From: Rhodocyclales bacterium
GTDB taxonomy: Bacteria > Pseudomonadota > Gammaproteobacteria > Burkholderiales > Rhodocyclaceae
DNA length: 64,000 nucleotides
Assembly: GCA_016215645.1 (NCBI GenBank)
Contig: JACRIX010000021.1
Span: 1 to 64,000, forward strand
Direction of reading: 5' to 3'
Made by a program: the position numbers and the translations under genes. Below are positions 40,289-53,633 of the stretch, one piece after another. Every line of letters begins with the position of its first letter. The first letter of the stretch is position 1. The notes beneath the pieces are model-generated. The model was given only the letters and a program-made list of their open reading frames with translations. It searched no databases and was not told where the DNA came from.

Positions 40289-41266
40289 ATGTCGCTTTCT
40301 GTGAATCCGACCTTTCAGAATACGATTTCCCTGCTGATTGCCGCGCTGGCAACGTCGTTGTTTCTTGATCTGCTGTTGCGGCGTTCGCACGCCTTGCCTG
40401 TTGATCGGCCGAACCAGCGTTCCTTGCATCAGCAACCGATGCCTCGCATCGGAGGCTTGGCCCTGTTTCCCGGAATCGTGCTGGCTGTCTTGATTTCCGG
40501 TGTCTGGGAGCCATTGGTCCTGGCGCCATTGGCTCTGGCGGGCCTTCTGTTCTTTCTCTCGATCGTCGATGACTGGCGCGGCCTGTCCGCAAGCCTGCGA
40601 TTCGGTACCCATTTCGCGGCTGCCCTGGGATTCGCTGTGTGGCTCGCTGGAGTAACACCATTGGCGTTGGCCGGTGCTTTCGCAATGACCTGGATGACCA
40701 ATCTCTATAACTTCATGGATGGCGCCAATGGGCTTGCGGGAGGTATGACCGCAATAGGTTTTGGAGTTCTCGGGCTTGCATCCGGAGAGGCTGTGCTGGT
40801 CTATGCAACGATGGGTGCCGCGCTGGGTTTCCTGCGCTACAACTTCGACCCGGCCCGCGTTTTTCTGGGTGACGCCGGCTCGATTCCTCTCGGGTTCCTT
40901 GCCGGTGCGCTCTCATTCGCCGGCGTGGCGCATGGACAATGGCCATTGTGGTTTCCATTGTTGGTCTTTGCTCCCTTTGTACTGGATGCCACGGTGACAC
41001 TCTTGAAACGCATGGTCCGGCAAGAGAAGGTATGGGCGGCACATCGTCAGCATTACTACCAACGCCTGGTGCGGATGGGTTGGTCGCACCGCCGCTTGGC
41101 GTTGGCTGAATACAGCTTGATGTGTGCCAGCGGCGGATTGGGTTTGTTGCTTCTCAACGCGTCTGCCGTTGGGCAGACGGTCGGCGTACTGGTCTGTATT
41201 GGCGTCCATGTGACGCTGATGGCGTGGATCGATCGACGCTGGACTGCCTCCGGGATGTCCGCATGA
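40289..41266 (+). CDS. WecA/GT4-family undecaprenyl-phosphate sugar-phosphate transferase
   Basis: FLSIVDDWRGLS...WMTNLYNFMDGANGLAGGMT...ARVFLGDAGSIPLGFLAG. Confidence 0.9.
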   Translation: MSLSVNPTFQNTISLLIAALATSLFLDLLLRRSHALPVDRPNQRSLHQQPMPRIGGLALFPGIVLAVLISGVWEPLVLAPLALAGLLFFLSIVDDWRGLSASLRFGTHFAAALGFAVWLAGVTPLALAGAFAMTWMTNLYNFMDGANGLAGGMTAIGFGVLGLASGEAVLVYATMGAALGFLRYNFDPARVFLGDAGSIPLGFLAGALSFAGVAHGQWPLWFPLLVFAPFVLDATVTLLKRMVRQEKVWAAHRQHYYQRLVRMGWSHRRLALAEYSLMCASGGLGLLLLNASAVGQTVGVLVCIGVHVTLMAWIDRRWTASGMSA

Positions 41267-43080
41267 ATCGCAGTGTTCTGATATTCCTCAATGACCTGGC
41301 TATGGTCGTGCTCGCCTGGCTAGGTGCGTACTGGCTTCGCTTTAACCTCGACATACCTGCCGAGTTCCGCCTGTCGATGTGGACGTCGCTTTGGATCGTT
41401 GCGCCGGTGCAGGGCGTCGTGTTCTATGCCTTCGGTCTGTATCGCGGGATATGGCGCTTCGCCAGTGTTCCCGACCTCAAGCGTATCTTGTTGGCCAGCG
41501 GCGTCGCCGGGTTGGCAACACCTGCCGCACTGGTAATGACCCAGCATTCGCTGGTACCGCGTTCGGTATTCATTCTCAGCCCGCTGCTGCTGGTTCTGCT
41601 GATGGGGGGCGGGCGCTTCACTTACCGCGCCTGGAAAGATGGCCATCTCTTCCTGCGTCGCACCGGTGTAGGCACGCCAGTGCTTATTGTCGGTACAGGC
41701 GAGATGGCGATGCGCCTGATCAAGGAGTTGGAAGCCAGTCAGGTGTGGCGCGTGGTTGGCATCGTCGAGCCTGGATCGGGCCAGGCAGGACGCCAACTGG
41801 GAGGGGTGCCGATTCTAGGCGGACTGGACGACATCCGCGTCTACGCAGAACGATCCGAGGCACAGTCGGCGATCGTTGCGATGCCAACAGCGGCGGTCGC
41901 GGAGCGGCGCCGGGTTGCGGAAGCGATCGCCTACGCCGGGCTTTCAGCGTTGACCGTTCCTACGCTCGATGATCTGCTTGCCGGACGCGTCGCCATTTCC
42001 GCCATTCGCAAGGTCGAACTGGAGGATTTGCTCGGCCGTGATCGTGTGGCGCTTGACGAAGCCGGATTGTCGGAGTTGCTGCAAGGCAAAACCGTCTTGG
42101 TAACCGGCGCCGGGGGCTCCATTGGCGCAGAGCTATGCCGCCAGATCGCGCGCTTCCATCCAGGCAAGATGATTTTCATCGAGCAGTCTGAATATGCCCT
42201 CTACAGCATCGGGCAGGAGTTTGCTGATCGTTCGGTGACTTGCCTGATCGCGGACGTCAAGGATGCCAGTCGCATGCAGGTGATTTTTTCCGCGTATCAA
42301 CCCCACGTGGTCTTTCATGCAGCGGCCTACAAACATGTACCGCTGATGGAGTCCGCCAATGCGTGGGAGGCGGTGAGAAACAATGTCTTGGGCACCTTGA
42401 CCGTCGCACGTGCCGCCATGGCGGCGGGAGTGGGTGAGTTCGTGCTCATCTCGACCGACAAGGCCGTCAATCCGACCAATGTCATGGGAGCCAGCAAGCG
42501 CCTGGCCGAGATAGTTTGCCAGGCAGTGCAGAGTCAAACTCAGTCCACGCGCTTCGTGATGGTCCGTTTCGGCAATGTACTTGGGTCATCGGGTAGCGTG
42601 ATTCCACTTTTTCGAGAACAGATTGCGCGCGGAGGACCGGTCACCGTAACCCATCCCGAGATCATTCGCTATTTCATGCTGATTCCAGAAGCCGCACAGC
42701 TGGTTCTTCAGGCAGGCCTGATGGCGATGCGCGATGCCGAGGCGGGCCGGGTCTTTGTGCTCGATATGGGGGAACCGGTTCGAATCATCGACCTCGCTCG
42801 CGACATGATTCGCCTTTCGGGTTTCAGCGAAGAGGATATACGGATCGAGTTCACCGGGCTTCGTCCCGGTGAAAAGCTTTATGAAGAATTGCTGGCGGAT
42901 GGTGAGGCGACCTTGCCGACACCGCATCCCAAGCTTCGCATCGCGAAACCCTCGGCTATACCGGACGCTGCCTGGCTCAACGAACTGGAAGCCTGGTTGG
43001 CGCAGCCTTGTCGCGTCGAGGTGGATGTAAAGGATGGCCTCAAGCACCGAATTCCAGAATACTGTCCTGCCGTGAACTGA
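41263..43080 (+). CDS. Membrane nucleoside-diphosphate-sugar epimerase/dehydratase (CapD/PglF-like)
   Basis: TM N-terminus; VLVTGAGGSIGAELCRQIARF...HAAAYKHVPLMES...ISTDKAVNPTNVMGASKRLAE. Confidence 0.92.
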   Translation: MNRSVLIFLNDLAMVVLAWLGAYWLRFNLDIPAEFRLSMWTSLWIVAPVQGVVFYAFGLYRGIWRFASVPDLKRILLASGVAGLATPAALVMTQHSLVPRSVFILSPLLLVLLMGGGRFTYRAWKDGHLFLRRTGVGTPVLIVGTGEMAMRLIKELEASQVWRVVGIVEPGSGQAGRQLGGVPILGGLDDIRVYAERSEAQSAIVAMPTAAVAERRRVAEAIAYAGLSALTVPTLDDLLAGRVAISAIRKVELEDLLGRDRVALDEAGLSELLQGKTVLVTGAGGSIGAELCRQIARFHPGKMIFIEQSEYALYSIGQEFADRSVTCLIADVKDASRMQVIFSAYQPHVVFHAAAYKHVPLMESANAWEAVRNNVLGTLTVARAAMAAGVGEFVLISTDKAVNPTNVMGASKRLAEIVCQAVQSQTQSTRFVMVRFGNVLGSSGSVIPLFREQIARGGPVTVTHPEIIRYFMLIPEAAQLVLQAGLMAMRDAEAGRVFVLDMGEPVRIIDLARDMIRLSGFSEEDIRIEFTGLRPGEKLYEELLADGEATLPTPHPKLRIAKPSAIPDAAWLNELEAWLAQPCRVEVDVKDGLKHRIPEYCPAVN

Positions 43081-43083
43081 AGG

Positions 43084-43138
43084 TTTTCCACCACTTCTGC
43101 ACACCTTACCCACAGCATTTCCACACCTTGTCCACTTA
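43084..43138 (+). promoter_or_regulatory. Array of five 11-bp DnaA-box-like direct repeats upstream of dnaB
   Basis: TTTTCCACCAC/TTCTGCACACC/TTACCCACAGC/ATTTCCACACC/TTGTCCACTTA at 43084, 43095, 43106, 43117, 43128. Confidence 0.75.
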
Positions 43139-43188
43139 ACACTGCGCTGTCCAGAGGCTAGACTCCCGGCTTCACTTCGGAGACATCG

Positions 43189-44583
43189 ATGGCACAGGTC
43201 CGCGCCTTCACCCCCCCGCAACCGCTGGATTCGCAGGTTGCCGCGCTTAAACTTCCCCCGCATTCCATCGAGGCCGAACAATCGCTGATCGGTGGTCTGC
43301 TGATTGACAATGCGGCGTGGGACCGCATCGGCGATGTGGTGCGCGAGACGGATTTTTATCGCGATGATCATCGTCGCATCTTCCGCCACATCGGCAAACT
43401 GATTCAACACGGTCGGCCCGCTGACGTCGTCACGGTCTACGAATCGATTGAGGCATCGAACGAAGTCGATCAGACCGGTGGCCTGGCCTATCTCGGCGAG
43501 ATCGCCAATTCGACGCCCTCGGCGGCGAACATTCGACGCTACGCGGAGATCGTGCGCGAGCGCGCCATCCTGCGCCAACTCGTCACCGTGGGGGACGAGA
43601 TTGCGGGAAACGCGCTGAATCCCGCCGGCCGCGAGGTGAAGACCCTGCTCGACGAGGCCGAGCAGAAGATCTTCCAGATTGCCGAAGCCGGCAACCGCAA
43701 CAATGCCGGATTCGTCGCCATCCAGCCGTTGCTCGGCGAAGTCGTTGAGCGCATGGAATCGCTGTTGGCGCGCGATAGCCAGTCGGACATTACCGGCGTT
43801 GCCACCGGCTTTGTCGATCTGGACAGGATGACCTCCGGCCTGCAACCCGGTGACATGATTGTGGTTGCGGGCAGGCCTGCGATGGGCAAGACGGCATTTG
43901 CATTGAATATTGCGGAGTATGTCGGCGTCGAGCAGCGTTTGCCGGTGGCCATCTTCAGCCTGGAAATGTCGGGTCCGCAGCTGGCGACGCGTTTCCTGTC
44001 CTCCGTCGGGCGCATTGACCAGTCGAAATTGCGCACGGGGCGGCTCACCGATGACGAATGGGACCGCATGACGGTGGCGCTGGGCAAACTGCACGAAGCG
44101 CCGATCCATATCGATGAAACCGGCGCGATCAATTCCACCGACCTGCGCGCGCGCGCGCGTCGCCTGCATCGGCAATTCGGCAAGCTGGGGCTGATCGTCA
44201 TCGACTACCTGCAACTGATGAGTTCCAATCGCGACGGCGAGAATCGCGCCACCGAGATTTCCGAGATTTCTCGCTCGATCAAGGCGCTGGCCAAGGAATT
44301 GCAGGTGCCGATCATTGCCCTGTCGCAGCTATCGCGAAAGGTCGAAGAGCGCAACGACAAGCGGCCCTTGATGAGCGACTTGCGTGAATCCGGCGCCATC
44401 GAGCAGGATGCCGACATCATCCTGATGATGTACCGCGAGGAATATTACAAGCCGGACACGCAGGACAAGGGTACCGCCGAAGCCATTATCGGCAAGCACC
44501 GCAACGGCCCCGTGGGTACCGTTCGACTTACCTTCATCGGCGAATACACGCGGTTCGAAAACCACGCATCCGGCTCATATTGA
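43189..44583 (+). CDS. dnaB: Replicative DNA helicase
   Basis: PPHSIEAEQSLIGGLLIDNAAWDRIGDVV...VVAGRPAMGKTAFALNIAEY...DYLQLMSS. Confidence 0.98.
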   Translation: MAQVRAFTPPQPLDSQVAALKLPPHSIEAEQSLIGGLLIDNAAWDRIGDVVRETDFYRDDHRRIFRHIGKLIQHGRPADVVTVYESIEASNEVDQTGGLAYLGEIANSTPSAANIRRYAEIVRERAILRQLVTVGDEIAGNALNPAGREVKTLLDEAEQKIFQIAEAGNRNNAGFVAIQPLLGEVVERMESLLARDSQSDITGVATGFVDLDRMTSGLQPGDMIVVAGRPAMGKTAFALNIAEYVGVEQRLPVAIFSLEMSGPQLATRFLSSVGRIDQSKLRTGRLTDDEWDRMTVALGKLHEAPIHIDETGAINSTDLRARARRLHRQFGKLGLIVIDYLQLMSSNRDGENRATEISEISRSIKALAKELQVPIIALSQLSRKVEERNDKRPLMSDLRESGAIEQDADIILMMYREEYYKPDTQDKGTAEAIIGKHRNGPVGTVRLTFIGEYTRFENHASGSY

Positions 44584-51990: not shown

Positions 51991-53633
51991 GGTTTGCTCA
52001 CGATCACGCGGCGACTGTCGCGGAACTGTTCGGTCATGGGGAGTCCCTTTTTCTGCATTTCGGTCCAGGTCTGCGGAGACATCAGTGCCCAGGCAGAAGG
52101 TAGTTCGCGCCAGCGGGCCTCGAAGGCATCCATGGTGACGATGAACTTGTGCGGCTCCTGGGCAATGCCGAAGCTCATTTCATCGCGATACGCCACCATG
52201 GTGGTGGTGCGCTTCAAATAAAACTGCAGGCTCTGGTCGTAGGTGTCGGCGGAAAAGAAGGGCACGTCCGGCGGCAGCTTGTCGCGGATGGCGAATGCGG
52301 CATCGTGGGCTGAATTGACCCGGCCGATTTCGTCATGCCCCAGGAGGAAAAACTGGCCAAACAGATGCCCACCGGTGGCAAGGGCCAGGGCAAAGGCAAG
52401 ACTGCGCCCCTTCCGTCCATAGGCGAAGGCGAGAATGCCACCGACCAGGAGCGCGACCGCAGCGCCGTATAGCCAGGGCTGGTAGGCAAGATAGCGGTCG
52501 ACACCGACTTGTGCGGTGGCGAAATCCGCAGCGCGACTGGCGAGGACCAACGCCGCAATGCCGACCAGAATGCTTGGCACGGCCTGCCAGCGCAGTGCCG
52601 GGCTGCCTTCCAGGCGCGCCAGGTACAGGCCGATCAACACCGCAATGGCGGGAAAGATCGGCAGGATGTAGGACGCGAGTTTGGAACTGGAAACGGAAAA
52701 GAAGCCGAAGACCACCACGATCCAGGTGAGCAAGAAACGCGTTGGGGAAAATTCGCGCGAATCACTTCTGGCGAAACCTAGCCAAAGACCCTGTGCCAGG
52801 CTGCCAAGCCAGGGAATCATGCCGATCAGCAGGATGGGAATGAAATACCAGGCGGGCTGGTAGCGGCCATGTGTCTTGGTCAGGAAGCGTTCGAAGTGCT
52901 CGTGAATGAAGAAGTAGTGAGGAAACTCCGGATTGGCAATCGACACCGCAATGAACCACGGCGCGGTGATGGCCAGCAGGATGGCGATGCCGCGAACCGG
53001 ACGAAGACGCATCAAAAAGCCCCAGTCTCGTTGCCAGAGCATGTAGGCCACCACGGTCGCGGCGGGAAGAACCAGCCCGATCAGGCCCTTGGAGAGCGTG
53101 GCCAGCGCCAGCAGCGCCCAGGCGCCGTCGCCCCAGCGCCGACTTCCGGCCGAGTCGTCACGCTGCGCCAGACACAGGGCCAGGACGGCGGCGGCAAGCA
53201 GGGCGCTCACCCCCATGTCGAGCGTATTGGCGTGGCCGATCACGTTCCACAGTACGCTGCTGCCGAGCACGGCTCCGCCAATGAGGCCAGCAAGCGGCGT
53301 AAACAGGCGGGCGGTGGCAAAGGCAGTCAGCAGGATGCCGAGGAAGCCGGTCAGCGCCGGCCACAGGCGCGCCGTCCAGTGGTGCTCGCCAAAAACAGTG
53401 AACGCGGCGGCGGTAGCCCAGTACTGGAGCGGTGGCTTGTAGAAATATTTGATGTCGTTCAGGCGCGGCGTGGTCCAGTCGCCGGTGGCCACCATCTCCC
53501 GTGGGATCTCGGCATAGCGCCCTTCGTCAGGATTGATCAGGCGCCGGTGCTCCAGCGTGCCGAACCAGACAAGTGCAAAGACCGCGACCAGCAGCAACAG
53601 GACATTGCGCGGAAGCCCGCCGCCAGCGCTCAT
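51987..53633 (-). CDS. ArnT-like GT39 glycosyltransferase
   Basis: WFGTLEHRRLINPDEGRYAEIPREMVATGDWTTPRLNDIKYFYKPPLQYWATAAAF; multi-TM. Confidence 0.9.
   Translation of the reverse strand: MSAGGGLPRNVLLLLVAVFALVWFGTLEHRRLINPDEGRYAEIPREMVATGDWTTPRLNDIKYFYKPPLQYWATAAAFTVFGEHHWTARLWPALTGFLGILLTAFATARLFTPLAGLIGGAVLGSSVLWNVIGHANTLDMGVSALLAAAVLALCLAQRDDSAGSRRWGDGAWALLALATLSKGLIGLVLPAATVVAYMLWQRDWGFLMRLRPVRGIAILLAITAPWFIAVSIANPEFPHYFFIHEHFERFLTKTHGRYQPAWYFIPILLIGMIPWLGSLAQGLWLGFARSDSREFSPTRFLLTWIVVVFGFFSVSSSKLASYILPIFPAIAVLIGLYLARLEGSPALRWQAVPSILVGIAALVLASRAADFATAQVGVDRYLAYQPWLYGAAVALLVGGILAFAYGRKGRSLAFALALATGGHLFGQFFLLGHDEIGRVNSAHDAAFAIRDKLPPDVPFFSADTYDQSLQFYLKRTTTMVAYRDEMSFGIAQEPHKFIVTMDAFEARWRELPSAWALMSPQTWTEMQKKGLPMTEQFRDSRRVIVSKP

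Follow-up and report, generated by a model that had tools for sequence, protein, structure and literature searches.

Why should five DnaA-box-like sequences stand in a row immediately in front of the gene for the replicative helicase? In the window (the whole 64-kb stretch of DNA analysed here), five 9-mers resembling the DnaA box occupy positions 43084–43136 of the + strand, all in the same orientation and with a period of exactly 11 bp, leaving 2-bp gaps between boxes. An initial annotation had described them as five head-to-tail 11-bp repeats directly upstream of dnaB, and its coordinates, strand and spacing hold, as do its mismatch counts against TTWTNCACA when taken again from the sequence (1, 1, 1, 1 and 2, the fifth box being TTGTCCACT); all five boxes are imperfect. 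The gene downstream, which begins 52 bp past the end of box 5, is confirmed as dnaB by its Pfam DnaB N and C domains (E 2e-35 and 1e-110).

Table 1. Features of the dnaB promoter region in the window, and the second double box found in the genus
Feature	Position	Strand	Remarks
DnaA box 1 (predicted), TTTTCCACC	43084..43092	+	8.7 bits; loosest of the five, variable in relatives
DnaA box 2 (predicted), TTCTGCACA	43095..43103	+	10.9 bits; register conserved
DnaA box 3 (predicted), TTACCCACA	43106..43114	+	12.7 bits; register conserved
DnaA box 4 (predicted), ATTTCCACA	43117..43125	+	7.7 bits; the genus's most conserved box
DnaA box 5 (predicted), TTGTCCACT	43128..43136	+	7.4 bits; 31 bp from the -10 in 31/31
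-35 element, TTAACA	43136..43141	+	promoter match; TTATCA/TTACCA in most relatives
-10 element, TAGACT	43159..43164	+	TAGACT or TAAACT, same place, in 31/31 sequences
dnaB, replicative DNA helicase, 464 aa	43189..44583	+	ORF; Pfam PF00772 and PF03796
CapD/WbpM-like polysaccharide biosynthesis gene	41122..43080	+	ORF; PF02719; upstream of the array
hemE-priA double box, TTACCCACA-aag-TTATCCACA	L155 1340–1375; own genome G000:C17, about 52839–52875		also L156, L157, L158

We scored the array with a weight matrix built solely from the 26 DnaA boxes in the E. coli ChIP-seq table of PMC11317965, in which a perfect box reaches 15.8 bits. At a period of 11, the phased score was 32.3, 40.0 and 47.5 bits for three, four and five boxes, respectively, while five-box scores were negative at periods of 9, 10 and 12–15. 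The matrix and shuffle test proposed in the initial annotation came out in its favour: across 200 dinucleotide-preserving shuffles of the 64-kb window, both strands included, the best five-box sum was 8.0 bits, against the 47.5 observed. The matrix scan showed no sixth in-register box on either side of the array. A chance or low-complexity repeat might be suspected, as each box is weak by itself and the window contains many boxes with one mismatch, but the shuffle tests, together with the uniqueness of the array across the genus and its conservation (see below), have already refuted this reading, to which we attach practically no weight. Taken singly, boxes with one mismatch show no enrichment (23 in the window against an expected 35.7), so the signal lies in the phasing only, and this phasing is far beyond chance.

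Conservation was assessed first within the genus; close relatives in a collection of named genomes go under Sulfuritalea sp. and Rhodocyclaceae bacterium. A genome pattern search for three boxes at an 11-bp period, tolerating at most two mismatches, found the pattern in 28 of 31 genus genomes, every match immediately upstream of dnaB; the other three genomes had no dnaB match or a dnaB cut before its start. The reversed control pattern gave zero matches across the same 31 genomes. Two-box searches, run in six genus genomes, returned dnaB, a few scattered single matches and one other conserved place, between hemE and priA. By these searches, on which uniqueness was judged, the dnaB array is the most regular and densest DnaA-box array found in the genus genomes. 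The initial annotation had made its case depend on conservation of the 11-bp period in sister species, and the period is indeed kept: in 31 aligned relatives the register is unbroken, with boxes 2–5 in nearly all and box 1 the most variable, and in every sequence 31 bp separate the start of box 5 from the -10 element. Mean column information is 1.56 bits in the boxes, against 0.57 in the upstream flank and 0.61 in the promoter spacer. Column conservation tracks the E. coli DnaA matrix (Spearman 0.52, 45 columns, p 2e-4), a value that is indicative only, the sequences being related. Just one of the 155 boxes in the aligned arrays is a perfect TTATCCACA, so the boxes have been kept weak. The genus consensus of boxes 2–5 alternates (ATTTNCACA, TTNTCCACA, ATTTCCACA, TTGTNCACT) with a faint 22-bp super-period, from which the window (43095–43136) deviates at box 2.

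The array abuts a sigma70-type promoter that matches 9 of 12 bases with a 17-bp spacer, the sole match in 42900–43400, where 0.1 would be expected. Its hexamers are imperfect and an extended -10 is absent. Box 5 ends on the base with which the -35 element begins, so relative to a dnaB transcription start that we infer near 43171, the array spans about -87 to -35. Upstream, the gene order runs rpsF, a priB-like gene, rpsR, rplI, a glycosyl-transferase-4 family gene and the CapD/WbpM-like gene, followed by the array. The stretch 40289–43080 of the window thus holds WecA-like and CapD/WbpM-like genes that separate rplI from the dnaB promoter; in many congeners rplI adjoins the array, and in the relative L031 the end of rplI stands just before it. 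Because rplI takes its place in many relatives, the CapD/WbpM-like gene falls outside the regulatory unit; the array stayed with dnaB although the upstream gene changed.

The dnaA gene is absent from the window's own assembly, which is 79.6% complete, but is present in relatives. In the complete genome of one of these, G002, the DnaA protein matches solved DnaA structures over its full length, including the DNA-binding-domain structure 1j1v (E 7e-31), and its recognition region carries GGRDHTTVMHA. In vivo, E. coli DnaA requires pairs of boxes 2 or 3 bp apart, and binding falls sharply when either box is mutated or the gap is widened (PMC11317965); at oriC, ATP-DnaA loads cooperatively onto weak same-direction boxes by head-to-tail contacts (PMC5742627). 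In sequence, the window array has what both the E. coli box pairs and the oriC low-affinity boxes require. DnaA-regulated promoters are expected to have at least two same-direction boxes with 2- or 3-bp gaps, located at the promoter and conserved with it; here there are five, with 2-bp gaps, and they are conserved together with the dnaB promoter. DnaA is therefore the probable binder, as judged from sequence. The sites could instead belong to another regulator with a DnaA-like recognition sequence, given that the identity of the binder is deduced from sequence, but this is unlikely: the E. coli DnaA matrix both detects the array and predicts its conserved columns, the oriC of the genus shares the same box core, and the gap lengths match the preference of DnaA.

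What might DnaA do at this site? The initial annotation had mentioned an accessory replication site outside oriC, and an ordered DnaA array is indeed what one finds at oriC. An origin here is nevertheless very improbable. The array has no AT-rich stretch, the highest AT content in 40 bp being 0.55 against 0.82 at a relative's oriC, and no DnaA-trio run was found at it. Mapping by the position of dnaA and dnaN, as had been suggested, placed the oriC boxes of the genus between these two genes and away from dnaB, which in G002 lies about 1.5 Mb from dnaA. The layout there is different: the G002 origin has perfect TTATCCACA boxes, and boxes 35–47 bp apart in both orientations, with no 11-bp array between dnaA and dnaN. 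The locus thus lacks both marks of an oriC-like origin, namely an AT-rich unwinding element or DnaA-trios and a location at dnaA-dnaN. A plasmid iteron array was also considered and rejected, as the neighbourhood is chromosomal, with ribosomal-protein genes and dnaB, and the array is conserved with dnaB over the clade; the iteron parallel drawn earlier is an analogy only.

Alternatively, the array could be a DnaA sink, acting by titration or datA-like inactivation on free or ATP-bound DnaA and on replication timing, and lying before dnaB by happenstance. No denser DnaA array was found in the genus, and datA likewise has same-direction boxes (PMC5742627), but five weak boxes would make a poor sink. 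Nor would a sink account for the fixed 31 bp to the -10 element or for the unvarying association with dnaB where the genes upstream differ, and the dnaB-dnaA distance varies from about half to a whole replichore among complete genomes with arrays. We consider this role improbable; the titration suggested in the initial annotation leaves the fixed promoter distance unexplained and survives as a possible side effect.

We favour, at a probability of roughly 0.77, a reading in which DnaA oligomerises on the array as a cis-regulatory element of the dnaB promoter and so sets dnaB transcription. In this proposal, DnaA protomers would occupy the five weak, same-facing boxes head to tail, approximately one per helical turn across the 2-bp gaps, forming a complex that terminates against the -35 element. 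The oligomer would set dnaB transcription, and the supply of helicase would thereby be coupled to active, probably ATP-bound, DnaA. The DnaA control of dnaB suggested in the initial annotation is well supported by the fixed distance to the -10 element, the dnaB-only linkage in the genus and the retention of the array despite the change of upstream gene. Its sensitivity to ATP-DnaA can reasonably be inferred because the boxes are weak and their gaps are 2 bp; binding would be cooperative and favoured by ATP, and would alter dnaB transcription. The regularity and conservation of the array suggest that helicase supply in these cells is linked to how active the initiator is.

As to the sign of this control, activation is slightly favoured over repression, because the promoter has imperfect hexamers and no extended -10, because the boxes sit upstream of the -35 element and because, in M. 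tuberculosis, a drop in DnaA binding at dnaB is accompanied by reduced dnaB expression. Under repression, the same complex would reach the -35 element and block RNA polymerase at high ATP-DnaA, and dnaB would be made mostly after DnaA inactivation. This variant of the preferred reading is a tentative one. E. coli ATP-DnaA represses transcription of dnaA (PMC5835720), and box 5 shares a base with the -35 element, an overlap that fits activation equally. Against it, four of the five boxes lie upstream of the -35 element, in a fixed register for which a plain repressor would have no use there, and the M. tuberculosis data (PMC7738170) favour activation.

The other conserved place, between hemE and priA, carries a double box TTACYCACA-aag-TTATCCACA common to the genus genomes searched and to G034, in which the first box reads TTTCCCACA; in the genus, an inverted TTGTGGGTAA follows. 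Its assignment as an nrdA marker was wrong, given this location. The two tandem boxes with an inverted box recall the head-to-head layout of E. coli DARS cores (PMC5742627), and by this analogy the site may be DARS-like, or else a priA promoter under DnaA control. If DnaA binds both sites, its regulon in these bacteria includes two replication helicase genes, dnaB and priA.

To follow the array beyond the genus, we surveyed chains of boxes at 11–12 bp upstream of dnaB, with presence set at p ≤ 0.01 against shuffles, an arbitrary threshold. A 4-bit box threshold missed arrays of weak boxes (L163, L181), and a lower threshold with controls was adopted; at control periods, 20 bits was reached in 3 of 420 tests. 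Significant chains preceded dnaB in all 32 sequences with a DnaB at least about 90% identical and in 32 of 39 further family members at roughly 71–84% identity. They were seen in 1 of 46 family members at about 72% identity or below, and in 2 of 23 sequences from other families of the same order. Three family members (L177, L181 and L186) have apparently longer phased runs before dnaB, with at least six box-like units. A related array or box pair stands ahead of dnaB across much of the Sulfuritalea/Sterolibacteriaceae clade and also in Comamonadaceae, to which most of the named cases outside the clade belong (Acidovorax, Caenimonas, Ramlibacter, Limnohabitans, Simplicispira). The typical comamonad form is TTATCCACA, 3 bp and TTNTCC, directly before the promoter. 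No array was found upstream of dnaB in the sampled Ralstonia, Chromobacteriaceae, Methylophilaceae, Alcaligenaceae or gammaproteobacteria. The array is missing from many betaproteobacteria, much of the same family among them, so it is not a general requirement. On a DnaB tree (FastTree, 117 rows) the trait is strongly clustered, with 15 changes against 39 when labels are shuffled; it may be ancestral with losses, or may have been gained repeatedly.

A more specific version of our proposal is that an oriC-like, head-to-tail assembly of ATP-DnaA on five weak boxes senses the nucleotide state of the initiator at the dnaB promoter, such that a betaproteobacterial clade, and Comamonadaceae with the shorter form, would dose helicase by the same switch that fires oriC. 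To this version we give slightly less than even odds. A DciA-family helicase partner is encoded in the window's own genome and in the relatives tested, and control of this kind would therefore operate in a helicase-loading system other than E. coli DnaC. In five genomes, DnaB matches are split near residue 235 within open frames of 824–844 aa (G019:C43, G057:C1, G074:C7, G119:C7 and G134:C1), the pattern that an intein in the DnaB ATPase domain would produce. Whether bacteria adjust helicase supply to initiator activity has been little studied, and the conserved promoter architecture makes coupling between helicase and initiator directly testable. As a linear series of DnaA sites that occurs naturally outside oriC, the array would also be useful for defining the box number, spacing and nucleotide state that DnaA assembly needs.

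Several known systems resemble parts of this arrangement. E. coli double boxes (nrdA, polA, purH, mioC; PMC11317965) likewise place same-direction boxes 2 or 3 bp apart at replication-related promoters, but they consist of two boxes, usually one of them perfect, whereas the window has five in a row, all imperfect, and its target, dnaB, is not among the listed E. coli ChIP targets. The low-affinity arrays of E. coli oriC, in the left and right DnaA-oligomerisation regions (PMC5742627), share clustered weak same-direction boxes suited to head-to-tail ATP-DnaA assembly; unlike them, the window array has no unwinding element and no strong anchor box, and is located in a promoter. E. coli datA, too, has same-direction DnaA boxes outside oriC, but it depends on two strong boxes together with an IHF site and is located away from promoters, whereas no box of the window array is perfect and the array adjoins a promoter. 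In a literature search that covered mainly openly accessible papers, neither a phased five-box array at dnaB nor DnaA control of this gene in betaproteobacteria turned up. The closest functional precedent is M. tuberculosis, where DnaA binds upstream of dnaB and a DnaA mutant that binds less there under-expresses dnaB; that paper states agreement with Caulobacter, citing Hottes 2005 (PMC7738170). There, as predicted for the window, DnaA acts at the replicative helicase gene, but the phylum is distant and the accessible text describes no phased five-box array. DnaA binding upstream of dnaB is thus already known from M. tuberculosis, and it is the phased, oriC-like form of five predicted boxes that appears to be new.
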